Of a DNA stretch of 64,000 nt, positions 432-59,700 are shown in pieces. The stretch is from Rhododendron vialii. Taxonomy: Eukaryota; Streptophyta; Magnoliopsida; Ericales; Ericaceae. The notes under the pieces were generated by a model. That model was given only the letters and a program-made list of their open reading frames with translations, did not search any database and was not told where the DNA came from. Each line of letters begins with the position of its first letter. Positions within the stretch are counted from its first letter, which is position 1. The position numbers were made by a program, and so were the translations under genes. The stretch spans positions 9,204,501 to 9,268,500 of the forward strand of contig NC_080559.1 of NCBI RefSeq assembly GCF_030253575.1, written 5' to 3'.

Positions 432-3400
432 TTACGAATTGAGTTGAGTGAGAGGCGAGCGTGGTATAAGAGACGGCTTCAGGCCCTTTACTTCAAATGA
501 TTCGTACGAATGGTTTTCTCGGAATTCCTCTACCAGGGATTCCATGGGCATGGCTCGAAGCGATTCAATTGTCCCCTTGCTGGGAATGTCTGGCTCGCTT
601 CTGATTGGTGTTGTGCCGGTAGGCTCGTAATCCTAATCATCAATTTTGAAACAATCAAGATGACAATCTAACGACTTATCAAAAAAAAAAAGGATGACAA
701 TCTAACTCTATTTTGATCGGGCAACAGAAAATGTGTAACTATTGTGAAGTAACAGAATATCTCAAACCGGTACAATTTGGAAGTAAATAGCAAACGAGAG
801 TTGACAAATAGTTGTGAACACGTGTTCTCAGCCTATATCCGGAAATGAATGAGTAAAATACAGATGGTAATGCCACAATGATTCGTTCTTAAACAAGCAG
901 GAATAGTCATGGTAGAGCCCTCAGTAGGTCTTGAAACAAACAGAAAAACAGATGTATCAGACGGTCAAAGAAGCATATTATGACTCTGGTTGATGATCCA
1001 AAAAAAAATTTATGACATTGGTTTTATGACTCTAAATATATTGGCCAGAGCAACAACACATAGGTCACAAGTCTCATATGTACATTACAAGGACAATAGC
1101 AGAAACTTTCAATCTTAATTTGTGCAGGAAAAGAAAAAAGGAAGAGAAACAAAAGGACAGATTTCCTCTCCCCACAATTTTTTGTATTTCCCATGAAACA
1201 TCCAAGAGAAAGAGGAAACACATTGTTTTTATAGTTATGTTCCTCAACATTCGCTAGATCAGATTTCTGTATTCTTCGGCCAAAAACGTGGACTAGGTGG
1301 CCAAAAGGTTTTTGTTAAAGTCTGAAGAACTGGATAGTTCAGGTTAGAGTGGGGCGGCCAAGAATGCACAAGCAAGATGCAACTTATCTGGAATCACAAG
1401 TACGATGCAAGATCGCATACCATGTATTTCTGTTGGAAGGTGTCCAGTGCTTTTTGTTCAATAGAAGCCGATTGGCCGGAATGATTCTCCCGGAGAACCT
1501 CAAGAGTAGTCACATGAGCCTTGACTGCACTCAAAATACCACTTACAGAGCCACATTCCTGCTCTGATACACCTGGGAAAAAAATTCAAACCATTTCCAT
1601 TAAAAACTGAAAAACAACAATAAATTAGTTTCAGCAGCACTTGTTATGCTTCTAGAAATGGTACCCTGACCCCTGTAAGGATACAAGGATGCATATAAAC
1701 AAGAGGGAATAGGCATATAAATGCTTCACAACCACAAAGAACTAGAGTGTCCTCGTCTTAAAATTTTACAGAGCACCAGCAGCTGATAGAGTCCAATCAA
1801 AGCGCAAAACTGGCTTACACATCCAGCAATCACTCTTCCATACTCTTCCATGGTCCCAAGTTGTTGGTCCTTCCAATTTGGGAAGTTCCAAAATAATCCA
1901 CTTTGAAAAGTCATGACTATGAAGATATTAAGACGTGAGAATAAACGGCAATTATAAAGGGCACTTTTGAAAATCGGTGCCTTTGGATATGATTGACCTT
2001 GAACGTCTTGTTAAGAATTTTGAATTCCACAGAAGGACTAACAGTGGAGAGAGCATCGGATAATAAAATTGAACTCAAAGTCAATGTAAGATATTTAATA
2101 TTTCATTAGCATTGGCCATTGGCTATCAACACTCAAACAAGCCAAGCAACTTTCTCAGACATATGACCGACTACGACGAGAAATTCAAGGGTGCGGGACA
2201 GGCATGGAAATCATCAATGGGAACAGAAGACACACTGAGTGCATGTCTAATGCACACAGAGATATGACCAAAAAATCTTTATCAGAAATTGGACTAGTAT
2301 TTACTTTGGCTCCGTATGAGGACAATATCAGTGAAATACTAAATCCTTTATTCAATGAGTTGGCTCTCTATGTTCTCAAAGCTTGTTCGGTCAGCGGGAA
2401 GGAAGCCAGAAAGTCAAGTCAGGTTTAGTTCCGGCAGTAGCAATGGCTTCTTTATCTCTCCATATTCAAAAAAACAAGATTGTTTAAAATTGATAGGACA
2501 AAATCTCATCTTTTTTTTTCAAAACATAGACTTGTATCCTAACACTAATATCTATTTAGTGGAATATGGTATACCATGTGACTGCGCCTTTTGCCGCACC
2601 CTAAATGAAAGAGTTCTTATGCTTATGCATCGAGAAAATTATATATGGGGAAATATGTAGAATAAAAATTAGTGTGTTCTTTGAACCCAGGATGTTCACT
2701 TAAACCCTGTCATGTTATAGTGCAACCCCTAAACAAAGGATCCATAACGTATGCATCATAGTGAAACGAGGTGCACTTGAGGCTCAAACAATGAGTAAAT
2801 AGGCAACATAGTTGTCCAAAAGTCAAGCTCCTCTGTTATGTTAGAGCATCCAACTTGAAACCAATTGCGGGTAGTGGACAGGCTTCCCTTGTACATATAC
2901 GAGTTTTGTGAGTAACAATCAACAGATGTGGGACAAGCTCTAGCATAGATCCAAAGGTGAATCTATTCAACACATAGGCATTTATGTTTTTGACTGGCAA
3001 TAAAATTGATCTTATTCTTAGGTCATACAATACACCAGCAATGTCAAGTAAGAAAGTCTGTGGAAGGTTTAAGGCAAGCTGTAACACTTATTTTTCCCAT
3101 GAAAACTAGTTTTTAGCCATGCAATCAAAGATAGTGAATTTGGGAAGGATTGGAAATTCATGGAGATGAGTTTGAAGCCAAAATATGTTGTGGTTCAATG
3201 GAACATATCTAGCCTGGCCACATGGACACATCCTACAAACAAGCTACAACATACAGATTGCATTGTCAAATTCCAACCTTGAAATTTAACCCTAATGTAG
3301 AAAGGAGTCATTTCAAAACATGATTTAAATTCGCAAACAAACAGAGAATATATCAGAATAATATCATACGAACTCGAAAAGATAAGATGTGATTGATACT

Positions 3401-5630
3401 CACAATCAAACTGCTGAATAATATCTTCACTATTTTTTGCCACATCATCTTCAACTGAAGCCCTTGCCAAGCTAATCTCAGTATCATGTTGCTCATTACT
3501 ATCAGACACATTCCTGGAACAAAAGGTCCAAGAATTATCTCAAATTAACGGCATCTGCAACTAATGCACTCAAAATCCATTCAAGTATTGAATTCCACCA
3601 TTACCTTTTTCATTCCCACATAAATATTTACCAACATTCTGTAAGAAACAGCTTTTGAAATAAAAATGCATGCTTTGACTTTCCATAGAGGAGTTATTTT
3701 TCGGGACATGCCGAATTTGCAAGAGCGAAAAACAATTAGGAAGAAGTATATGGCTACAATTCACTGAACCATCAATAAAACCGAAAACAATCCCCATGTT
3801 TCATAACTAGAAAGGACTGACGTCAAATTTTCCAATTACGTCTAGTGCAGAATACTCATAGTCTTCTGTTTCTTGACAAACAATGTTAGGGCCACCAACC
3901 TGACAAGGGAGACCAACGTTGAAACATGTTGACAACCCATTTCGTTAATGGTCTCATGTGTCCCTTTCCACTGCTTGGAAGCTGCTTCAGTAGTGTTTAC
4001 ACTGCGAAGGAAAAATGGAAACCAACAGGCAACATTGAAAGATCAATTGTAGAACATATTATACAAGTCCCTATCCATGGCAGAACATATTACACGAGGT
4101 CCCAACTTGCCAGCAAAAGTTTATCCGAATATCCAGAAGCAAACAAAACAGAGAGAAATAAGCACTGCATCATTCACTTTTTACCATTGCTGGAGGAGTA
4201 ACTCCATACGGCAATGTTTGGCAGCAGAGAAATCTGCACTATCTTTTGCATCATTGTCTGCTTGCAAGGATAACTCCTGCCATTTTCTTTTTGCATCTGT
4301 AGTGATACCCTCCATCGAGGAAACATGCCCGTCCAAAAATTTCTTATTTCCAACAACTGTTTCTTTGAGACTAATGAGCCGTGCATCCACCTGTCAGCAT
4401 AACCATTAGTCCTTCCTGAAAACAAAACAAGAGAAGCAAAAAAGCATTCAAGACAGCAAACACAAACATACCAAGTCCTTTTGGCGACGAATATGATTAG
4501 AGACTAGGCCAGTTACATCAGCAATAAGCTTCTCTGCAACTGATTTTGATTGCTCCTGTATACGTTAAGCTTAAACTGTGAAACACTACTCAAAACCTAT
4601 TATCTCTGCAAACAAGATTCTGAATATTTACCTCGTAAGCCTTCTGAAACTCTACTATACTTCTTGATTGGATGTCATCAATTTTGGTTACATGGCTTTG
4701 AAGCTTTCCTGATTCTTCCATAAGCTTATGGAGAAATCCATTGGTGAACTCTGACATATTCTTGGAGTGCTCAATACTTACATTAAATCTCTGCACAATT
4801 ACACAAACGTAAACAAAATTTGGTTTAAATAACAGTAAAACAGTCAAGACAATTACTAAACTCAAAAATGCAAAAATGCAAAAGAAGGTAAAGAACTTAA
4901 TGTAAGTCCACAGATCAACTAATTAGGCATCCTCTCTAGAAGGACTTTGCAAAATCATAAGCGGACATTTTTCTGTAATAATTGGCCATGAAAGTTGGAA
5001 TTTCAAGTGAGATATGTCACCAAGTACCATTAGAGAAACTAGATATTCTCGAAGGATGTGAAGAACTAATGAATCAAACCTGGCGAAGATCTCTAGCGAA
5101 ATGAGCCATTTCTCCTTGGTGAGTTGACAGAGTGCCTTGAAGATCCTCAAAAATAGAATTCGCTTCAACAGCCTCTGCAGCTAAAAACTGATTCACAAAT
5201 AACAAAAAGAAAGACAGAAGGCATGATATCAATCAATCATCAACGAGAATTACGATAGCATAAGAAAAGCCATTCACGCAAACATGAAATTGGTGCAACC
5301 TACTTGCTCAATAGAAGATGCATTAGAAGAAACTGAGGCTGAAATCTCCTCTAAACCAGCATCAGAGCTTGCATTGTGCAGACGAACAACATTTTGTATT
5401 GCCTCAATGTGAGATATATACAGCGCCCTAGAAGCAGTCATTTTTTTCTTTAAATCCATGATGGCCTGTGATAGGAATTTGACTTAACATCCATGTGTGT
5501 AAAAAGAAATGGGAACGTGGATGAAGCTCAATCTCATACAAAAGCAAGTACTTATAAGCTTGTAGCAAAGATCAATCATTCCAATAAAATACACACAAAA
5601 TATTAGATAGGTAGATAGATATATATACAG

Positions 5631-5676
<46 letters not shown>

Positions 5677-8600
5677 ATGAAGTGGTCGAATAAGATCAGC
5701 CAAAACTTCACCAGTACCTTATTGTGTATGTCCAAAAACGACTGACAAAGTTTCTCAATGCACTGGAGGTGTTCATTTTGACGAGACATTGAGGTTGCTA
5801 AGGTATTACAAAGGGAACCTAGTTGCTGCACTAGATCGGCTTGGAAATCATTCACAACTGACCTGTTATCAACATTCAGTTTGTCTTCTCTTGCTATAAA
5901 AAAACACATCACACGGCAGCAGTCAGAAACAGATGTACGTAATCAAGACACTTAGTAGGATATGAATTGTAACTGACATAACGTACCGATTTTCGAATAT
6001 AACAAAGCATTATCCTGCAGAGATTTCTCCAAGTCAGATCGCAAGACGCATGCTTGATGAGCCAATGCATTTTCTGTTCCAAATAGGAATCGACATTAGA
6101 AGATTCAGCAACCAGAAGTATTTCCAACAAAAAGAACAAATCAAGCATACCTGCTTTTTTATGCTCAGATATGACAAAATCACGCTCCTTGAGAGCATAC
6201 TGGCATCTCCTTAACTCTTCCTCAGTGCAAGCCAACGATTTGCTTGTTTGGTTCAAGTTTCTCTGCAAAACTTTGCATTTTATGATGAAAGCAAGGGAAG
6301 AATCAAAAAGTTTACAATGGATACAAGATGCATCAAACCTAAAAGTGTACAAGAGGCACTGAAGAGATGTTTCCAAGACTCAAGCTTTGAATTTTTATTT
6401 TTTTTATCAGCAAAAGTAACATTTTATTAAAAGAAAACTTGACAAAGGGTACATCAAGTTCAGGGGGTAAGGGGAGGGGAATCCAACTAAGGGTTGGATG
6501 AAGAAGAAAACACCAAGTGGGCTGAGGCCCAAACATCTGTGGGCAAAGCCCAATAGCACCCTATAGGCTTCAAAACGCCCAGATTTAAACACATAAAGCT
6601 CAAATACATCACAAAGGCCTAAAATGCCCAGATTTAAAATTTGGGTTTTGATTTGGCATGCATTGGATGATGCTCCACCTACTTGGAGTTAGCTTAAATA
6701 TGTGGTAGTCTTGAAGTCTTGTTTTAGTTCTGTTTTTGTATTCTCTGTTACTGACACGTTTTTTCAGTCGAAAGAGTATCTTGCTAATTGTGTGATTCGA
6801 TGGATATGGGTTTTTTGCCCATGATCCGTCTTATGGGTCAAGTTCTTCTTTTATTCTTTTTCTTTCTTTTTCCTTTTTTTTTTTTTTTGGAGGGGGGGGG
6901 GGGGGGGGGGGGGGGGTATTATATTTTGGCTTATTTGGGTTGAGATTGATTTAATAAATCAAAAGTTAAGTAGTTTCCTTATTTAAATTAGGAATGTAAA
7001 GCAAAGTCTCACATAGCCTAGGTACCTAAGTAATATAAAGTATATAACCATGAGGGCACCCTAACTTCAGTAGCTAGCTTTTGGGGTTGAGTTCTTCCCA
7101 AGATCATGTAACATGGCATCAAAGCTAGGTTCCAGAGATGGGTAGGGTGTATTTCTCTGGCCTGGCCTACGGGTACCCTCGCTTAAATAGCATGAGGGTT
7201 CCCTCACTTAAACAGCTAGCTTTTAGGGTTAAGTTATACAAAAGACCATGTAACTGTCTCTATAGAATATATGAGGATGTAATGCCTCAGTAATAAGGGA
7301 GATGGATATTACAGCACATTCAAAACTTTATAACATCTTTGATGGATTGTGTTCTACCCAAGACCATGTAACAGCCTCTATAGAATATATGAGGATGTCA
7401 TGCCTCAATAATAAGGGAGATGGATATTACAGCACAATCAGAGCTTTATAGCATCATTGATGGATTGTGTAATGAAATCAAACACTTGGTGCGATGCCTA
7501 AGGATTCAAGTAGTGATTCCTAAACCTATCTTCTTCTCTCTTTTTATTCTTGTTTTCTATTTGCAATCTGCCCCTGTTACTGTTCACATAGTACTATTCA
7601 CAGCCCTAAAAGTGTTCTAAAAGGCGGCGACATGATTGTCCCTAGGCGGTTTGTTTAGGCGCTCGGCTGGGCTAGGCGCCTAGGTGCTAGGCGGGCGCCT
7701 AGGGTCTGGAATCTCCAAAAAAAAAACCAAGGCAGGCGCCAAGGCGGCCTGGCGCCTTTTAGACCACTGCCTAAACAACATAAATTAGTACTGGAACCTT
7801 GCCTAATCACTTCTCCAAAACCCTACTTCTTTGTTTCCTGAACCTTGCCTAATCACTGCTCCAAAACCCTACTTCTTTGTTTCCTTTACAGATCCTAAAT
7901 CCTGCAATTGTCCTACATCAGGTTATATAACACAGTGAACATAAATTACCTTGGTGGCACCAAGTTCACTGCTTAAACCAGAGCATTCTTGAACCTGAGC
8001 ATCATATTTATCTTGCAGTTCTTCAAGTTGCTGGTCATAACAAACAAGGAATGTGAGGTGACACAAAAAAACACAACAACATTACAGATGAATCTTGTTA
8101 TTTGTTAAAGTTTTAAATGTAACTGACCTTCTGATGAGTATCTATTGTAACACCCATTTGTTCAATCTGATCAGCCATTGCCTAGACATGAAGAAAGAAT
8201 ATACAATTTAGGAGGAGAATACTAGAATAGTAAGATTCAGAAAATCAATATAAAATGATTTAGGAAACATATGTCGCCTGATGGTGTGTCAATCCAAAGG
8301 TTACTCAATCCATGTACTAAGAAGTAAGAATGTACATGCAACACATCCCAAATGCTTCACTGAAAATTCAAGCAGACAACAGAAATACGACGATTTTGAA
8401 AGCAAATGGATTGGATTAGCAATGAAGAGTCTTCAACGGTCAAGAGGTCAATTACAGAACTATAAAGGAATAAAAAAGTAAAAAACTGCTCAAACAGTGA
8501 AAGAAAGACAAGACAAGACCAATCCAGTACCTTCTTTTCACTTTCTTCCTGATAGTATCGGTCCTTCGGTATATAGACACCATTTTTCTCACGAGCAGCA

Positions 8601-25639: not shown

Positions 25640-27738
25640 ATTTCTTCTCATGAGTTTCTGGTGTTGAACATGTTCTCTAATGGGAACATTCACATTTCTA
25701 AGCGTTCAATAAAATTCTTTCTATCTGTCTCTTGTTTAAGAATTGATCAAGTATTCTCTTCCAACTTTTCATTTCGAATTTTTATCTATCAGGCAAGTGC
25801 ATTATAGCTATTGTTCACCTGCGTAATTCTCGGGCGTTTTGTATAATATGCAAACATTCCTAATTCTTATGAGTGCAAAAAACAATGTCCTGCTTATAAT
25901 CGATGGTTTAGTTGTTCCAATAAAGTGGATAAAGTTCCTGGAAGATCAAAGAGTTGCCAAATGCCAACCCCGTTAATTAATATAGGAATTGGATTCTCTC
26001 TGGTCCTTAATTTGGATTGGAGGGGATAGTCCAAATCTAGATTGTTTATTGGCGGACAGTCCAAATTTGGAATATATTAATGTATGATTTAGATTTGGAT
26101 GGTCCCGTTCAGGTTTTGGACTAGAAAGAATTTTAACCCATAATTATAGTAGTAATTGCTTTGTCAAGTAAAAGCTCTAGATCGTTTATTGGCGGACAGT
26201 CCAAATCTGAAATACATTAATGTATGATTTAGATTTGGATGGTCCGTTCAGGTTTTGGACTAGAAAGAATTTGAACCCATAATTATAGTAGTAATTGCTT
26301 TGTCAAGTAAAAGCATTTATGGTGCTGATTTTGTGGTAGTTTGTATACAGAAAATGTTATGGTACATGAAAATGTCTAAGAAAAAGAATGGATAGTGTTG
26401 ATGTGAATCTCAATCGTCCATTCTCTTTCCAAGACAATCATGTGTCCTATCAAGTCCCTTTGTTTACCGCGGCTACAACACATGGTATAGTAGTATACCA
26501 ATTTGCTCAAGCTTCTCCGGTACGTTATTATTTTAAAACTGTACAAAAAAATGAGCAAATTATATGTTTTCGCAACTCAAGGTCCGACTAGTTTATATGC
26601 ACATTTTCGCAACTCAAGGTCCGACTAGTTTATATGCACATTGACTAACTTTGGGAAACCAATCATACAGTCCATTAGCAGGAATTGAGATTAAAATCAG
26701 GACAATCCTATACGTAGGCCGGTCCTGAATTTTTGGAGGCCTAAAGCGAAAGTAAAAAATGAGGTTTTTTTACAAATTTGTAAGACAAACATAAGATAAA
26801 AAAATCACTTTTCCCAAAATAAGAGAGCACTGACCAATAAGAAAAAATCCCAACTGCATTCGGAACAAGTGATCTATCACTTGCTGTATTGGCACCGTGC
26901 ATGCACAGATTTTTAATGGCTTCAAAGTTCAAAGCTCTTGTTCTATGAAAATGAGAAATTTAGATTTTTTATGTTAAGCTCTAGTACACGTTTGCACCCA
27001 AAAACAGGAAGATATTTAGATTCCAATGAAGTAAGATTAAGGCATTTAGTTGGGGCAACCGCTGAAACAAACCCTCTCTCTTTCTCCGAACCCTTCTCTC
27101 TAAATGTTGGTATGTGTTCTTTTCAAACCAAATTAATGAATCAAGTCAGTGAAGAAAGCGTGTCGTCAATCACTCAAGGTGAGTATGGTTGGTGTGTTGT
27201 TTTGAAAAACATGGCACTGGCCGGACAATGGTAAGGAAAAAACAAGAGCCCAAAAAAAAGAAGGTAAAATCACGGGCACAAAAAAAAGCATGATAAAAGC
27301 ACGGACACGAAAAAAATACGGACACGGAACGACAAGCTGTTATATTTATTGTAAATTATTTTTAACGATTAATAATTTTGTTTTGCCAAGAAAAACGAAA
27401 ACTTCCTTGGTCAATGGTCTTTACTATAGAAAACCTAATTCCAATTAGTAAGATGAATTATCTGATAAAAATGGATCATTTAGTTCTCCAATTTATAAAT
27501 ATGCCACCGAGTATTTTTGGATCTTGCTTTGACTGAATTCGTGTTGGGTCTTTATTTCATCTTTGGATGAGCTTTTTTTTTTTTGGTTATATACTACATA
27601 AAACTACTATATATTTTGGGAACCTAAAAATCTGTCAATTTTTTTTTTTTGAGCTTAAAGCCATGTAACTTGGGCTTTAGCCAGCCCTATATGAGTTGAC
27701 CTCATTCGAGTTGAAACCTCATGATACCTAGTATATTA
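25640..27738. other. Intergenic, with two tandem duplications
   Basis: Begins with the acyltransferase 3' UTR. It contains a 140-bp direct duplication (26041-26180 and 26181-26318, TTTATTGGCGGACAGTCC) and a perfect 37-bp duplication (26567-26603 and 26604-26640). A possible worn TIR element spans about 26714-27693, with ends like TAGGCCGGTCCTGAA and TAGGGCTGGC on opposite strands. No gene is supported. Confidence 0.6.
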
Positions 27739-28153: not shown

Positions 28154-28546
28154 CTAAATGAACTCTTCAACCAGCTTCCCAAAGTCAAACCTCCCATGAC
28201 AGCATTCAACAGCACTCACCACCTCTTGAAAAGCGTTGACACTGCAAGGCACCACCAGCCCATTCCTCTGCTCAAACCCAAACTCATCGTACGCCTTCTC
28301 TAACAGCATCTTGAACAGAGGGTGCGTCAAGTACCCCGTCGGCACCACGAACCGCCGCCGCTCCTCCCCCACGTACACCGCCAAAAACCCCGTCGGGGTG
28401 GCGGCCGACGTCCCCGAGCCTTCCTCCCATTGGTGATCATCCCTTAGCAAACACTCGTGGTACGTTGGCTCATGATCACGTGAACCCCCCATTACCCTCA
28501 CTTTCTTGGCTAGTTTCTTGACAGACCCCATTTTCTTTCCCAGCAT
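28154..28546 (-). CDS. SAUR family protein (small auxin-up RNA), intronless
   Basis: 130-aa protein with the complete SAUR domain at about residues 50-125: GFLAVYVGEERRRFVVP, then YLTHPLFKMLLEKAYDEFGF and a VVPCSVNAFQEVVS segment. SAURs inhibit PP2C.D phosphatases, which keeps plasma-membrane H+-ATPases active and promotes cell expansion. They are typically single-exon genes, as here. The N-terminus is basic (KKMGSVKKLAKKVR); translation could equally begin at the second Met (residue 6). A long (GA)n tract lies immediately upstream of the ATG in the leader. The protein is somewhat longer than the smallest SAURs because of the insert around residues 25-48. The subfamily member is not decided. 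Confidence 0.92.
   Translation of the reverse strand: MLGKKMGSVKKLAKKVRVMGGSRDHEPTYHECLLRDDHQWEEGSGTSAATPTGFLAVYVGEERRRFVVPTGYLTHPLFKMLLEKAYDEFGFEQRNGLVVPCSVNAFQEVVSAVECCHGRFDFGKLVEEFI

Positions 28547-28547
<1 letters not shown>

Positions 28548-28609
<62 letters not shown>
28548..28609. repeat. (CT/GA)n microsatellite in the SAUR leader
   Basis: About 30 GA units on the plus strand, CT on the SAUR transcript, ending next to the start codon. Likely part of the 5' UTR or core promoter and likely polymorphic. Confidence 0.85.
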
Positions 28610-28611
<2 letters not shown>

Positions 28612-28773
28612 TGTGGGTTTAGAACTTCGGAAGGGGAATGGCTTAAAATAGCTAGTGACGTGCTTTTGACTTCAAAAAAATTGAGAACCTATGATTGTGG
28701 AGGTGGTTTTAGGTTCTCTGTCGTTGGGGATTGTCTTCATGATTATTCTTCCACGTGTAGAATAATTAGCTTA

Positions 28774-34273: not shown

Positions 34274-34929
34274 TAAGGAGTAGAGATGATATTGGGGAAA
34301 GGAAAAAAAAGTACCCCGTCCAAAAATCGCTTTATTTCATTTGTAAGAGGGTGAATAATTTGGAAAAAGTGTGCTTTTACTTTCCTTTTTCAAAAATTTA
34401 AATAATAATTTTTTTAAAAATAAATTAAATGACTCGATCTGTATGTGTGTGTGTGTATATATATATATATATAATTTTTTATTGAACGGTTCAATAAAAA
34501 ATTATTCAAATCAAGCCATACCCGGTCATTTTGTTTGCCAATTTCTCGTAAATACGCTTAAAATCATGTTCTGAACACATTGAACGGCTCGGATCATCAA
34601 ATTTCAATCGGAAAATGGGAGGTGCAGACGGTAAAAGGGTGTGGACTTGAAACGTGGTGGTGTACATATACACATACACACACACTCTCTCTACTAATCC
34701 TATCAGGGATCCTAGACATGCACAAAATCTAGACTTCTTTTGTAGGTCGTTGGATGAGTCATCCAATGGCTATGACAAAAGGGAAGAATCTCGCGGGTCA
34801 AATGCATAAAAAAAGAGACGGGTTGGAGGAAACGGGTTCTCTACTCATGCGTGTCAAGACCCAATCCCCTCTTTCCCAATTCCCAGTTCATTACGTTCGG
34901 AGAGAGGGAGAGAGAGAAGAGGCGATTTA

Positions 34930-35645
34930 TGTTGGAGCATAAACTTGATTTGGTATTTTGGCCCAAGAAAAATGAAGTCCAAGACAAACCCAATAAAAAA
35001 GCCCAAATAGTAGATATTATTGGAGGAGTATTAAATATGTTGTTTCTAGAAGGAGTACTGCTACCGGTACAGAAAAATTGGGACCGAAATCCTACCGACG
35101 GCCGCCGGTGGGCCGTCTCCGGCCACCGGACGGCCGATCCGAGCCGTTCAAAAATTCTAAAAAAAAAAACCGAGGGGCCCAACGCGGGAATCAATGTCAT
35201 CCGAGGTGTGTAGGGTGCTTGATCGGAGCACCCCTTTTCGTGTATATACGCACGAAAAGGGGTGCTCCGATCAAGCACCCTACACACCTCGGATGACATT
35301 GATTCCCGCGTTGGGCCCCTCGGTTTTTTTTTTTAGAATTTTTGAACGGCTCGGATCGGCCGTCCGGTGGCCGGAGACGGCCCACCGGCGGCCGTCGGTA
35401 GGATTTCGGTCCCAATTTTTCTGTACCGGTATCTTTACTGTTCTAGAAGACCTTGTTCTAGAAGATCCCTGGAAAGTATCTAGATATTTGTTGTTAGTAT
35501 AAGTCACATGTGTAAAATCTAGAATGTACCTATAAATTATCTTGTAAAAGATATCAAAAAAGTTCAAGTTCTAAGTGAAATACAAGTACTCTTCTCCTTC
35601 AAAAATCCTGTCCAAATATATACCTGATACTCTCCCCTTCAGACA
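34930..35645. mobile_element. Solo LTR fossil, itself split by a MITE
   Basis: Starts TGTTGGAGCA and ends CAGACA, flanked by near-identical 5-bp repeats ATTTA (34925-34929) and ATTCA (35646-35650). The uninterrupted right arm of the surrounding palindrome shows the empty site (GGCAATTAAGGCG near 36915), which supports both borders. Net length about 320 bp once the inserted MITE is discounted. Copia-like by size and wording; no internal retroelement region is present. It is younger than the inverted duplication. Confidence 0.7.
35053..35440. mobile_element. Foldback MITE, copy 2 (9-bp TSD TTCTAGAAG)
   Basis: 388-bp near-perfect palindrome, homologous throughout to the element at 21920-22327 (shared CATCCGAGGTGTGTAGG, GACGGCCGATCCGAGCCGT). 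It is flanked by exact 9-bp repeats TTCTAGAAG (35044-35052 and 35441-35449). It sits inside a solo LTR. Overlapping reading frames on both strands are palindrome artefacts. Confidence 0.92.
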
Positions 35646-36736
35646 ATTCAGGCGTTCGAAGATTTTTTAACGATCGATCTGAAACGAACAATATATCCAA
35701 GCGACGACGACTCCACGGTCTCTTCTCTTTCTCTTTCTCTCTCTCTCTGCATTTTTCTGCAAAACCAGAAATTAGGGCTTGAGGATTTTTTTTTTGGTTT
35801 TGAACCAAAAAAAGCACCAAAAGAACGACTAAAGAAGAAGATTGAATCTCTCTCCCAATCTAGTTAGGGTTCGAGACCTGATTATGGTTTTGCTAATTTC
35901 AAACAGAAATTAGGTTTTGTGAACTGGGTTTGTCAAATTAGGGTTATGCATACGCCTTGGGCTTAATAGTTTCAAATTCAAAATTCCAGTTTATGAAAGT
36001 TTGAGTACTAGCAGAGTAGGTTCGATTTCTAGTTCATGGGATTTAGGATATTGTATAGTCGGTAGTCTTTTGGATAAATTGCAGCATTAATTTGATATAT
36101 TCCCTTTTTTGCACAGATGGTGCGTGAGAAGGCCCTTCGTGCACTCCATGAAGGATTTCATAGTTTCTGAAAACCTATTAAAAGACGCCATTGCAGATGC
36201 ATCATTCTTGTTCTGGGGTCATATTAGACATCAAACCTAAAAAGTTTTCATGTCCAATCCTTGCTTTATCGCGACACCAGAACAAGATGATGCATCTGCA
36301 ATGGCGTATTTTAATAGCTTTTCAGAAACTATGAAATCCTTTTCATGGAGTGCACGATGGGCCTTCTCACTGCACCATCTGTGCAAAAAAGGCAATCCAA
36401 TTAATGCCGCAATTTGTCCAAAATTAAAGCAGCAACAGCAAGGAATCCAATATGAAATCACGTTTCACTCTTCGACAAACTAGAATAATCAACCAATGGA
36501 CCACAATATAAATACAGAAAAAAATGAACAACATCAAAAGAATTGGAACTCGGATGTATTAGGCTGAGGCATACGAGGATTTATCCAGTTCTGGTTCCAA
36601 ACAGCCTGAGGCCCTGATCTTCTCCTAATTTCTGGTTCGTCAAACCATAACCCTAATTTGACAAACCTAGTTCACAAAACCTAATTTTCGTTTGAAATCA
36701 GCAAAACCATAATCGGGTCTTGAACCCTAACCAAAT

Positions 36737-36831
36737 TGAGAGAGAGAGAGAGAGAGAGATTCGATCTTAGTGCTCTTTTTGGTTCGAAACAAAAAAAACC
36801 CCTAAAAGCCTAATTCTGTATTTGTAAAAAT

Positions 36832-36867
<36 letters not shown>
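36737..36867. repeat. Two GA microsatellites in the right palindrome arm
   Basis: GA runs at about 36738-36760 and 36835-36867 correspond to CT-rich segments of the left arm (about 35725-35745 and 35848). They have expanded differently since the inverted duplication. Confidence 0.75.
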
Positions 36868-36869
<2 letters not shown>

Positions 36870-37992
36870 ATTGGAGTCGTTGTCGCTTGGATTGTTCGTT
36901 TCGAATTCGAACGCCTTAATTGCCTCCTCCTCTCTCTCTCCCTCCCTCCCTCCCTCCCTTTCTCTCTCTGACCGTAATGAACTAGGAATTGAGAAATGGG
37001 GGATTGGGTCTTGACTCATGTGAGTGGAGAACCTGTTTCCTCCGACCCGTCTCTTTTTTTATGCATTTGACCCACGAGATTCTTCCATTTTATCACAGCT
37101 ATTGGATGACTCATCCAACGGCCTACAAAAGAAGTCCGTATTTTGTGCATGTCTAAGATCCCTGATAGGATCAGTAGCGCTTTTGCATTCTCTTTGAGCA
37201 GGTGTGCCTAAAGACCATATTACCCTCTCCAATTTCGGATAGTACCCAAAACACCATCATGAAACAAATTCATTTAAATTTGTAGACCTAATTTGTATAA
37301 CGTTTTAGTTGTCTGTTTTGTTTTTCTTTTAGTTCGTATGTTTTTTTTTTTTTTTGGGATCAATGATCGTTTGAGGTGTTCTTGCTTTTTTGTAATTACT
37401 TAGATTTAACTTAATTGTTATTAGTATAAAAATTGGCAGTAACATTGTTGGAGGCTTTCAATTACAAAAAAATAAAGGAAGGACAAAAGAGACTTCGAAC
37501 CAAAAAAACTTAATCGTTATTTTACTTGTCGTTATTTCTTCCAAGCACCAAAAATTTTAAAAACTACTTGGAGAATTTCAATTAACGAAGAAGAAAACAA
37601 TTTAACAATATAACTTTAAAAAAATTGCGTAAAACATTATTCATACACATTGTATATCATAATAAATAACCAAAGATATGGTAAAAAATTAATTCATAAT
37701 TCATTTTCATCACATATCTCCCAAAAGCTACTACCGTTGCAAAATGCATCCTGAACATGTCATCCAAATAATTTACCAAATCCAAAATATATTCTGACCA
37801 TAAAAATAAAAAGCCATAAAGTAGGTTTCCAAAATCAATTAGACCGGTTCTGGACTAAAGTCCCAATATACCCATCGTTTTAGGCCCTCAAAAGTTGGCT
37901 AATTTTAGGATCCGAAAATCTATAGACTGTTTGTATACCAAAAAATAGTAAAGGCCCAAGTCCCAGCACAATTCAGCATTCAAAAGCAATGA

Positions 37993-38340
37993 GGCCCAAA
38001 AATTCGGAGACATGATCTTTTTGTGCCGAGAGATTTTCTGGTTATTGAATTTAAATCTTAAAAAAAAATACACACAATTCAATGGCTGAAAAACTTCTCA
38101 GTACAAATGGCGCCGGAGTTTTCGGACGAAGCCGAAGAGATCGGACCCCAAAAATTGGGAGGCAGGATCTTCTGTGTCGAAAATTTTTGCGCCTCTGTGC
38201 CGAGAGATTTTTTGGTCGTTGAAAATTTTAAATTTAAAAAAAAAAAATAACACAATCCAACGGCTGAAAAATCTCTTTGCACAGAGGCACAAGAATTTTC
38301 GGAGCCGGAGAGATCGGGCCCCAAAAAATAGGCGGCCGAA
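37993..38340. repeat. Tandem duplication, about 174-bp period
   Basis: Two direct units share GTGCCGAGAGATTTT, CCAACGGCTGAAAAA-type phrases and GAGATCGG. The second unit also carries small inverted repeats (GCCTCTGTGC / GCACAGAGGC). Likely part of a dispersed palindromic repeat; no coding content. Confidence 0.65.
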
Positions 38341-50054: not shown

Positions 50055-51941
50055 TCACCAGAACTCATTGCAAGAACAGGCTCCGTCTTTAAAATGGTGG
50101 AAACGAGTTGCGTCTCTAATGACAAACTGCCGATCCACAACCTTGCTGACCAACTTTATGAACAAGTGACAGTCTCCACATATCCTCAAGTTCTTTATCA
50201 CAAGAATCTCCCTTCCTAAACCGGAGTTTAGAAGCCCAAAAGCAATAGCCAACCTTTCGCTATGCACTCCCACCCCATTTACAAGCTCTTCAGTTCTTCT
50301 AGCTGGATCAGTTTTCTCATACCTGCCAAGTTCGTTCACCAAACCTTCCAACCTGTCCAACATCCTATACATCTCCTCTGTTTGAGGGTGACTTCTATCT
50401 CCTACCATAAAAAGGTGAGTCCTTCCTTTGTATTCCACGTAACTACACCCGGGATCCTTTTTAAGCTTCCGTTCCCTCATCATCACTCGAACCCTCCTTA
50501 CCCCTTCCATATCCTTTGCCTCTGTGTACATGTTCGACATCAAAACATAGAAGCCGATGTTCCAGGGTTCGAATTTAATGACACGATTAAAAGCTAATTC
50601 TGCTAGGTTGACATTTCTATGGATCTTACAAGCACCCAAAAGAGCCCCCCATACAACACCATCAGGTTCCACAGGCATTGATTCAATGAGTCCATGAGCT
50701 TCCGCAAGTCGACCAGCTCGACCCAAAAGATCCACCACGCAAGAGTAGTGCTCCAAACCCGGCTGCAACCCATAGTTGCTTTCCATTAAACTAAAATAAC
50801 CCGAGCCCTTATCGGTCAATCCTGCATGGCTACAAGCAGATAAAATGCTCACAAACACTGCTCCATCAGGTTTAATCCCTGTCTTGATCATCTCATCAAA
50901 CAATTCTACTGCAATTTCTCCTTGCCCGTGCATTCCATACCCGCCTATAATTGCTGTCCACGATACTAAGGTTTTCTCTGGCATTTCATCAAAAATAGAG
51001 CGAGCTCTTGCTAAATTACCACATCTAGCATTCATGTTTATCAAAGCATTTTTCAGGAACAGATTATATCCGAACCCACCAGATTCTATTTGTTGTTCAA
51101 CCTTCAGACCAACCTTGCGGGCACCAAGGTTAGCACAAGATGACAGAACCCCAACAAGTGCTACGGGATCTGGACAAATCCCCAAGGATTCCATCTCATG
51201 GTAAAGCTCCAAAACTTGAGTAGCAAGTCCATTCTGGGCATACCCAGAAATCATAGCATTCCATGTAATCAACCCCCTCTCAGGCATGTCATCAAAAAGA
51301 TTCCTAGCAAGTTCAATCGACCCGCATCGAACATACATTGTAAGCAAACAATTTGCCACAGACAAGTCAGTGTCCAATCCACATTTCACAACAAACCCAT
51401 GAACAGACATCCCAAAATACCTATCGTTAGGAACAGTACAACCAGGAACCAAACCCAAAATCGTAACATCGTTAACCGACACACCCACTTCCCTCATTCG
51501 GCAAAACAAAGTAATCGCATCGGAAAATCTTGAATTATAAGTGTACCCAGCAATCAAAGCGTTGTAACAAACACTCAGGGTTCTACACAGAGGATTTTCG
51601 TCGAACAGCTTACGTGCACTATTGATGAACCTACACTTACAGTACATGGAAATCAATGCGGTTAGGACAAAGGGATCGGATTGGGACCCGGCTCTGACAA
51701 CGTGGGAGTGGAGCTGTGCGCCGAGGAGGGGGAGGGAGAGGGCGGCGCAGGACTTGAGGGCGAAAGGGAAGGTGAAGGCAGCGGGGGAGGGGTCGCCGGA
51801 GCGGAGGAGGCTGCGGTAGAGGAGGAGGGCTTGGTGGTAGTCGCCTTGTTTGGCTAGGTCTCTCAATTGGGTAGTCCATGAATTTGTAGTGCTTGTAGTG
51901 TTTGTGCAATGCAATGAGCAGAGTGGTCTAGCTTTTTTCAT
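50055..51941 (-). CDS. MEF10: PPR protein, PLS-DYW class, MEF10-like RNA editing factor
   Basis: Intronless, 628 aa. After a short N-terminal stretch that may target mitochondria, PPR repeats of P, L and S type run from about residue 35 to 440 (phrases such as CYNALIAGYTYN, ITWNAMISGYAQNG, VSWTAIIGGYGMHG). E/E+ domains follow, then a DYW cytidine-deaminase-like domain. Its zinc site is intact: HSE at 560-562 and CGDC at 588-591. The C-terminus is EFW instead of DYW. Order and wording match Arabidopsis MEF10 (At3g11460), a mitochondrial C-to-U editing factor reported for a nad2 site; the target here is inferred, not shown. The neighbouring PPT gene supports orthology, since the Arabidopsis counterparts are adjacent. 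The start is the first ATG in frame; the upstream DNA is filled with foldback repeats. Confidence 0.93.
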   Translation of the reverse strand: MKKARPLCSLHCTNTTSTTNSWTTQLRDLAKQGDYHQALLLYRSLLRSGDPSPAAFTFPFALKSCAALSLPLLGAQLHSHVVRAGSQSDPFVLTALISMYCKCRFINSARKLFDENPLCRTLSVCYNALIAGYTYNSRFSDAITLFCRMREVGVSVNDVTILGLVPGCTVPNDRYFGMSVHGFVVKCGLDTDLSVANCLLTMYVRCGSIELARNLFDDMPERGLITWNAMISGYAQNGLATQVLELYHEMESLGICPDPVALVGVLSSCANLGARKVGLKVEQQIESGGFGYNLFLKNALINMNARCGNLARARSIFDEMPEKTLVSWTAIIGGYGMHGQGEIAVELFDEMIKTGIKPDGAVFVSILSACSHAGLTDKGSGYFSLMESNYGLQPGLEHYSCVVDLLGRAGRLAEAHGLIESMPVEPDGVVWGALLGACKIHRNVNLAELAFNRVIKFEPWNIGFYVLMSNMYTEAKDMEGVRRVRVMMRERKLKKDPGCSYVEYKGRTHLFMVGDRSHPQTEEMYRMLDRLEGLVNELGRYEKTDPARRTEELVNGVGVHSERLAIAFGLLNSGLGREILVIKNLRICGDCHLFIKLVSKVVDRQFVIRDATRFHHFKDGACSCNEFW

Positions 51942-52019
51942 CTGTCATTTTTTTCAATACCCTTGGTTGGCAACTACTGTAGTCGTTAATAAACCAGCGA
52001 AAAAGCTATGGACACCCAC

Positions 52020-56700: not shown

Positions 56701-59700
56701 AGAGCAGCGTGACGAGGGTAGGTCATTGTTGCGCATAACGAGGGAAGACAAAACATGCCAGGTAAAACTCTCGGGATATCAGCTACATATTCTTAAGAAA
56801 ACCTAGCTTAAGTGCACTTTTAGTTGGCATATTTTCGTTCTCCCATCAGAAGCCCTTGTACAGTTTTTCACCATATTGACCATGGTTTATATTCAATTCT
56901 TTGGGAGTGGAGAGTTTTATTCTGCCTCACATTATATCCAACCCTTCAGTGTGATAAACCACCACCAACTGCATCTTTTGCATAGAATGACATGATCTCT
57001 TCTGAGGTACTAATACTTAACTTTGTATTGCGTCAAGGTAATATTGGAGAAGACACGAGAGGAGAGTGAGTCCTCAGCACATGAAGACGATATTAGCTAT
57101 TCTTATGAACGGCTAAAGGATTTAGAATGTCGGATTCTGAATTTGCCTGCTTTATGGTATCTGTAAGATTTTTTGCCACCCTGCTTTCACAATGTTTTAT
57201 GGAATATATGGCAATCGTTGTCTTCACTCTCTTCAATTTATTAGTCGCTTGTTTGGTATCTGTTGCAGATTGCCGTCCTTGCAGTATGGTGATTTAACAT
57301 CCTTTTCTATGCTGTCTGGTTTTAGTAAAACAAAGAGGCTTGTGGATGTTGAATCACATGATGTGGTTGCCCTTGCTAAGAAAGCTTTGTCAGCCTCAAA
57401 ACAAGCAGCTTTGTTAGCCGATGAGTTACATTTATTTGGACCCAAAGTTGATGAATTCCGCGCCGAAGTTGATGAATTCCAAACTCCTAGGTCTGTTTCT
57501 TTCTAAAAGTCCCTTCCGCCATAACCCCCCCAACACACACAGAACCCCCCCAACGCACAACGCACACAGAGAAAAAAAGAAAGAAAGAAAAATAGAAAGA
57601 AAAACCCTTTGTCTCTTTTTGTTGCTCCATTTTTTGGAAGCCAACTTCCCACGGTGACATCATAAGTGTTTCAAAGTTTTAACTTTCCGAAGGTGCCTTC
57701 CTCTATGGAATTTAATTTGATCCTTTCAGTTCCACTGCAATTGGAAGAGAAGGCCAAAATAAGATTGGTAGTCCATTTCTGGAAGCCAACTTCTCACGGA
57801 GACATCATAATTGTTTCAAAGTTTTTCACTTTCCAAAGGTGCCCTCCTCTATGGCATTTAATTCGATCCTTTAATTTTCACTGCGATCGGAAGAGAAGGC
57901 CAATATAGGAATGATAGCAAACTTTTCCATCAATTCTGGTAAGTGGACTTATATTATGGGAAACTTCAAGATGGCCCAAATGGAATAATGGTAAAAAGGG
58001 ACAAGGAGTGTTTGTATAGATGTATATTATCATGTTCTTGGTACAAAATCAATTTCAAATGGGAATCATGTCTTGAACCTTTTTTCAGTTCCACATCCAC
58101 AAGTTTCTCAAATTTCCCGCTTGAGGAGGTGATAACTGTAAGGTCAACACGTCTACTAGAGAGGCAAAAGAAAAGAGGCGGACCAATTCCTGAAGTTATG
58201 GTTCAGGAGACTAGAAATCCTCCAAGGTCAAAATCAAGAAGAAAATCAAGTAAACCATACGAACCAGACAATCCTGTTCGAAATTTCCTGCGGAGACCAG
58301 AAAAGAAGAAACTTTTGACCGTACAAGAAGAAACTGAATTGTTTACTCAGATACATGTACACTTGGTGCTCTATCTTCTTTTCTACAACAAATTTCGGAA
58401 AATAAGAGATCTGCTTATTACTGTTCATATTTTATCAGGTTTTGAAGAGATTAGAAGAATTGAAGAGTAGGCTTCAGTCTGAGGTTGACCGTGAACCAAC
58501 AATGGCAGAATGGGCTTCTGCTGCTGGGCTTAGTTGTCAGGCCTTGAAGTGGCAAGTCCGTTGTGGTAACAACTGCCGGGAGAGAATAATTTATGCCAAT
58601 TCCCGTATGGTGGTTCATATTGCTAAAAAATATTGTGGACGTGGTCTCAACCTTGAGGATTTATTGCAGGTACAAAAAGTTTATTTTCTAACGTCTGTAG
58701 TTTTTTATGATAACCTCTTCACGTCACCTTTCCCAAGGAACTCAACCCCATTGCTCGTTTCATCATGAAATATACTTACATAGAAGACCAAATTAACCTA
58801 GAAGTTAAATACTTGCTTGTAAATCCCTTTTGATATTTCTTTTGACCTAAATTTGTTAGAAGTATGATTCTCTTAAAAAATAGCATATGCGTGTTTGAGA
58901 TAGCTATGGATGCAGATTTTAGATTATAGCTTCAGATTCTGGTGCAGATTATAGATTTGAATTATTGTTGAAGCAGATAAACTTGTTTACAATAGGTGTC
59001 GAATTATGATAAAAGCTAATATTGTTTACTGCAAAAAGATGAAAATCAACTTCCAGAATACTTATAATATAAAATCTGATCCGAAAAGCAGCTTAAACCC
59101 AGCTTCTGTAGAATCGGATTTTATCCCTATTTCAGCTTCTAGGAATTCATAGATTCTCAAAATCTGCTCATAAAATTTTTGACAAACACTCACAAGCTTT
59201 TTAAAGCTAAATCTCGAAATGTGCTCCGAGAATTATTTGTGAACACCCAGATGGTAATCTATACCAGTTATCAATCATGTTTGGTAAATTGATAAGCTAT
59301 GATGCATGGACACGGACACGGACACTGAAACCGACACCGGGACACGGGAATTCTAAAAAAATGTGGACACGGACAAGGCAGGGGACACGCCACGTGTATA
59401 TTTATTTATATATATAAATAAATAAATAATTATAGTTTAACACCTAGAAATTTAAAAAAAATTATAATTTGGCCCCAATTTTTAAAAAAAAATTACAATT
59501 TGACCAATTTTTTTAAAATTACAGTTTGGCCCCCAAAATTTTTAAAAAAATTGCAGTTTGGCCCCTGTCGTGTCCCCATTGGTGTCCCCGCCGTGTCCCC
59601 AGCGGTGTCCTGTCGTGTCCCCAGCAATGTCCCGCCGTGTCCCCAGCTGTGTCCCCCTCAAAATTTAATATTAAAATATGGGACACGCCACGTGGCGTGT

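Follow-up and report, generated by a model that had tools for sequence, protein, structure and literature searches.

Structure of the inverted duplication

The window analysed here is the whole 64,000-nucleotide stretch of Rhododendron vialii DNA (NC_080559.1, positions 9,204,501 to 9,268,500), and it contains an inverted repeat at 34691-37177 with arms at 34691-36216 and 36276-37177. Both arms share CT/GA tracts, TTAGGGTT stretches, an TTGCACAG splice-acceptor-like site and then an ATG. The left arm seems longer because an insert of 716 bp, starting with TG and ending with CA, sits within it. The features of the locus are listed below in window coordinates.

34444..34685, no strand: neighbouring repeat that stops 5 bp short of the left arm; dinucleotide runs flank it, (TG)n/(TA)n at 34444-34473 on the left side and (AC)n at 34676-34685 on the right side
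34691..37177, no strand: whole inverted duplication, very probably a foldback-type remnant of a Mutator-like element (MULE) with long terminal inverted repeats (TIRs), from self-alignment and family placement
34691..34929, + strand: outer part of the left arm, read as TIR and start of the leader (88% to 36951-37177; aligns to the TIR of relative L060)
34930..35645, no strand: 716-bp TG...CA insert, solo-LTR-like, with flanks ATTTA/ATTCA
35044..35448, no strand: palindromic (MITE-like) element of 405 bp inside the LTR-like insert, with a relative at 21919-22319
35646..36216, + strand: inner part of the left arm, comprising a CT-rich leader, an intron-like stretch, the TTGCACAG acceptor-like site and an exon-like end (leader relatives L026, L027 and L012)
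36117..36216, + strand: exon-like end of the left arm, following the AG; its reading frame is shifted with respect to that of the right arm
36217..36275, no strand: loop of 59 bp, which matched only its own locus
36240..36464, - strand: open frame of 75 aa over the exon-like end of the right arm, with no Pfam match at E <= 1
36276..37177, - strand: right arm, reading inwards, from self-alignment

The imperfect inverted repeat of 2.5 kb with a loop of about 60 bp that had been described from the raw letters proved to be real. After removal of the insert, the alignment of the two arms (817 and 902 nt, with 7 bases of the insert still inside the 817) gave 655 identities over 751 aligned positions (87%) and 217 gap columns, and its score of 879 compares with a mean of -0.8, a standard deviation of 17 and a maximum of 50 in 200 mononucleotide shuffles. 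Ungapped blocks pair 34691-34917 with 36951-37177 (227 nt, 88%), 35847-35948 with 36646-36747 (91%) and 36151-36205 with 36287-36341 (96%), while the middle stretch, about 35950-36067 against 36424-36640, yielded no convincing alignment. At about 810 and 902 nt and 87% identity, the arms qualify as the long TIRs looked for in a MULE.

The two 5-bp flanks of the insert differ by one mismatch. Its right part (35449-35645) has at least 65 matches in the genome (the best 40 of 72 candidates were scored), and those on C11 include some pairs on the same strand at spacings of about 6 and 11 kb, for example C11:9355484 and C11:9361407; the insert is therefore read as solo-LTR-like. The palindromic element within it is 96.6% self-complementary and matches 21919-22285 in two orientations, at 82% and 84%. 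An LTR-like element holding the palindromic element landed in the left arm at a later time.

Elsewhere in the window, 15473-22319 is occupied by a run of palindromic elements and repeats, reminiscent of the transposable element arrays described for SaTar elements, with self-complementary stretches at 16672-17443, 17820-18746, 21243-21744 and 21928-22319 and an inverted pair at 20153-20554/20832-21237; a scan for dinucleotide runs of at least five units found none in it. Short tandem duplications at 7233-7470, 26036-26314, 57626-57917 and 38022-38336 have periods of about 118, 140, 146 and 174 bp. Two protein-coding regions were also recognized by Pfam, a SAUR-type auxin-inducible protein at 28157-28618 on the minus strand (E 1.8e-24) and, on the same strand at 50058-51944, a PPR protein of 629 aa with E and DYW deaminase domains.

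Of the five dinucleotide runs in the window, three belong to the flanks of the neighbouring repeat, which itself has relatives. Its (AC)n run adjoins the left arm, and the right end of the duplication lacks a dinucleotide run of five or more units. Among the family elements inspected, 7 of 9 have a terminus preceded by a (TA)n or (CA)n run, a comparison in which the ends taken for L060 lay outside its TIR; the L065 terminus has no such run, and the right end of L060 follows one. An exact target-site duplication of 8-11 bp was not found at the locus. The best candidate, 8 bp with one mismatch and lying 8 bp outside the right end, is equalled by 11% of 300 shuffles.

Relatives of the arms and their transposase

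Searches of the window's own genome (532.6 Mb, 13 contigs) returned seven matches to the outer left arm, two of which are the locus itself and five of which lie outside it (L010, L011, L012, L013 and L014). The arm homologue in L014 (4995-4928, 80% over 71 bp) has a (TA)n/(CA)n run on its outer side and a CT- and TTAGGG-rich leader on its inner side. It is followed on the same strand by a FAR1/MULE transposase starting at 4040, decayed by many stops, whose first matched codon (residue 25) lies 888 bp downstream of the homologue. Judged from sequence, L014 is the main evidence that the apparent plant 5′ UTR and intron of the arms are MULE leader. No transposase was detected at E 1e-5 in the DNA fetched for L010 and L011 (about 3 kb each) or for L012 and L013 (9.9 kb each), and no partner terminus for the arm-like stretch was seen in the latter two. 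The inner right arm gave 11 matches: three to its own locus, five to short CT tracts of 31-54 nt, which were dropped, and three that are informative (L018/L026, L019/L027 and L020/L028). The fetched DNA of L026 and L027 likewise held no transposase at E 1e-5.

L027 (C4:30824317-30827698) is a 3.4-kb element whose TIRs are 87% identical and whose terminus and leader can be aligned to the arms in the window. Its TIR has at least 41 matches in the genome (the best 40 of 63 candidates were scored), and 18 of these form nine facing pairs less than 10 kb apart, L027's own included. The eight pairs other than L027 were fetched, and all eight have inverted ends because the pairs were chosen that way. 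An ORF of 748 aa with MULE (E 2-3e-30), FAR1 (E 3-8e-18) and SWIM (E 2e-6) domains by Pfam is present in three of them (L059, L060 and L061), and in L061 it starts 231 bp inside the inner TIR edge. The inverted repeats of these three measure 929, 1167 and 870 bp, lengths to which adjoining microsatellite sequence contributes and, for L060, an adjoining repeat as well. Without these the TIRs come to about 0.8-0.9 kb, so that termini of the size of the window arms are usual among these elements. Repeats of 124-249 bp were found in the remaining five. Since long inverted termini are common among the fetched relatives, the layout of the arms needs no special origin.

Further ORFs were seen in L059, at 2066-2476 on the plus strand with a ribonuclease H1 N-terminal domain (Pfam Cauli_VI, E 6.9e-17) and at 2932-3492 on the minus strand with a KOW match under the curated cut-off; both are possibly captured genes. 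L060 carries, at 3822-5215 beyond its main ORF, three extra copies of transposase residues 715-744 spaced 652 bp apart.

Direct comparison of the outer arms with the TIRs of L060 and L061 gave alignment scores of 70-91, whereas 500 mononucleotide shuffles for each averaged 21-22 and peaked at 34-41; the left outer arm and the L060 TIR account for the score of 91 (shuffles 21.8, sd 3.1). The termini are therefore homologous to those of elements with a Mutator-type transposase, at 80% over 71 bp for L014 and at a low 69-76% over 63-147 columns for the three elements with an intact ORF. Because identity to the latter is low, the family placement rests on L014 together with a chain of matches that leads from the window via L012, L026 and L027 to L059, L060 and L061. 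In these alignments, each arm opens with homology to a MULE terminus and continues into CT/GA-rich leader sequence like that found ahead of the transposase in relatives.

Proposed origin and competing explanations

The locus is very probably an old, non-autonomous, foldback-type MULE from a group of long-TIR elements that have a FAR1-type transposase and are mostly found beside microsatellites. It looks largely ordinary, consisting of the ends of an old Mutator-like element and not of a silencing copy of a plant gene. A larger element may have lost its interior, or one of its ends may have been duplicated in inverted orientation; either event would leave two leader ends pointing inwards, both carrying an exon-like fragment. 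Movement, if any, would have been by transposase supplied in trans, and the element is presumably now a relic. The original prediction had likened the arms to a 5′ UTR, intron and exon, and they do have leader-like, intron-like and exon-like parts, but the outer arm and the leader match MULE ends. That match does not extend over the arms end to end, the extent at which the prediction itself would have yielded to a DNA transposon family.

The part of the arms left without relatives is the exon-like core, the innermost 100 bp or so, which together with the loop had its own locus as sole match in the 532.6-Mb genome. The core was searched by DNA (E <= 1) and by peptide (E <= 10), and the inner right arm and the core plus loop by DNA; such a search scores the best candidates only, so that a diverged donor could be missed and the lack of a match is not proof of rarity. 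Since, among the candidates scored, the core returned its own locus alone by DNA, by peptide and together with the loop, no parent gene was found, and a host parent gene was rejected. The exon frames of both arms gave no Pfam match at E <= 1. L012 was also considered as the promoter of a parent gene and rejected, as its homology fades at the intron and is followed by an ORF that we take to be gag-like.

Among the competing explanations, the most probable by a narrow margin, although still very unlikely, is a Pack-MULE whose captured host-gene fragment is now present in both arms and comes from a donor that was later lost or diverged. It would account for an exon-like core that is absent from the aligned family members. 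In addition, a 73-bp segment of the right arm at 36515-36587 is 86% identical to L028 4906-4975, between the exons of a gene on C7 that we presume from its peptides to be HUB1-like, and some of the element interior may therefore be captured DNA. The shared 73 bp are, however, confined to the right arm and are possibly a captured fragment or possibly a small repeat; L028, offering a single short stretch in one arm only, was set aside as donor, and the best-candidate genome search identified no donor gene for the core with DNA (E <= 1) or peptide (E <= 10) queries.

The proposed foldback MULE might itself produce RNA. The element without its insert (1771 nt) has a predicted fold of -1008 kcal/mol, and -1016 kcal/mol on the other strand, compared with -431 +/- 15 kcal/mol for shuffled controls (n=8) and -343 to -585 kcal/mol for six other window stretches of the same length; 624 of the 810 left-arm bases pair across the loop. 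By this prediction, a transcript of the locus would form a long hairpin. Were either terminus still able to drive transcription, the RNA would run through the loop and fold back on itself, to be diced into siRNAs whose main targets would be the locus and its closest relatives. After low-complexity filtering, 1529 arm 21-mers remained; 95 of them come within two mismatches of L012, 28 of L026, 23 of L027, 11 of L013 and 1 of L066, and none of L059, L060, L061, L062 or L065; any diced RNAs would therefore suit near relatives but miss the transposase-bearing copies that were examined.

The second alternative recalls Mu killer of maize, in which two inverted copies of a terminus and its downstream sequence are arranged as they are here (PMC3440606). 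A silencer of this type, an inverted duplication of one end of a MULE whose long hairpin is diced and silences related MULEs in trans, would be consistent with the strong fold predicted for either strand and with the 21-mers that fit L012, L026, L027, L013 and L066. Two inverted copies of one MULE terminus are indeed present, an arrangement common to any MULE with near-identical long TIRs. Against this explanation, no transposase coding sequence was found in the arms by Pfam on the two exon frames or by tblastn of the L061 transposase at 1e-5, none of the 21-mers fits the transposase-bearing L059-L061, and the arms have decayed to 87% identity, with the left one interrupted. We regard it as highly improbable, and by the same analogy there is little likelihood that this is a natural Mu killer-like locus where the self-complementary RNA of inward-facing termini silences a microsatellite-associated MULE subfamily.

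Least probable of all, and by a reading of the evidence hardly tenable, is the origin that the original prediction had favoured, an inverted duplication of a host-gene fragment giving siRNAs or a young MIRNA that silence the parent gene in trans, which has in its favour the gene-like look, the acceptor-like site and ATG shared by both arms and the 75-aa frame, but for which the searches supplied neither a parent gene nor a Pfam match nor an Rfam family at gathering score, while the outer arm and leader match transposon ends. The 43 Rfam matches at E <= 1, 42 to microRNA families and one to an IRES, all fell below the gathering score, and a known RNA family was rejected; 30 lie on 36748-36988, mainly on GA/CT tracts, three on the palindrome at 35207-35287, and ten on a hairpin at 38155-38326, outside the element. 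Rfam therefore recognized no known MIRNA precursor family, which a young MIRNA need not have.

Comparison with known systems

Long TIRs of the foldback type have been described for MuTAnT and FARE1 (PMC4486113). Microsatellite-associated MULEs are likewise known, namely MuTAnT, with TAFT also named (PMC4486113), and SaTar (PMC5907723). MuTAnT of Medicago, SaTar/AgS-MULE of guayule and rice, and TAFT of maize resemble the locus in several respects: a Mutator-type transposase, as in the window's relatives, TIR ends that adjoin (TA)n/(CA)n, a neighbouring repeat flanked in the same way and unclear target-site duplications (PMC5907723, PMC4486113). The comparison is by description, and the window element differs in adjoining a microsatellite at its left end only, in arms of about 0.8-0.9 kb that include the leader, and in relatives whose transposase has a FAR1 domain. 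FARE1, an Arabidopsis foldback element classified among the MULEs, has long palindromic repeats at both ends, as here, when compared by its description (PMC4486113).

MULEs with multiple long TIRs and Pack-MULEs are rearranged long-TIR MULEs like the present one (PMC3310237), but their extra TIRs are mostly in tandem, whereas in the window two leader-bearing ends face each other. The same source states that Mutator TIRs harbour promoters and are transcribed inwards (PMC3310237). A search of the literature on Rhododendron together with Mutator, transposable element and hairpin found no report.

Mu killer has MULE ends that face each other together with part of a transposase gene in inverted orientation (PMC3440606). 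The window arms, in contrast, are without transposase coding sequence, are 13% diverged and have no close match to the transposase-bearing relatives, and the locus is filed with the long-TIR MULEs and not as a Mu killer-type silencer. Seen as raw sequence, long MULE termini with leader and intron-like parts can pass for an inverted host-gene copy, and the locus is a caution for the annotation of long-hairpin siRNA loci. Should it be transcribed and diced, it would offer a natural case to compare with Mu killer.
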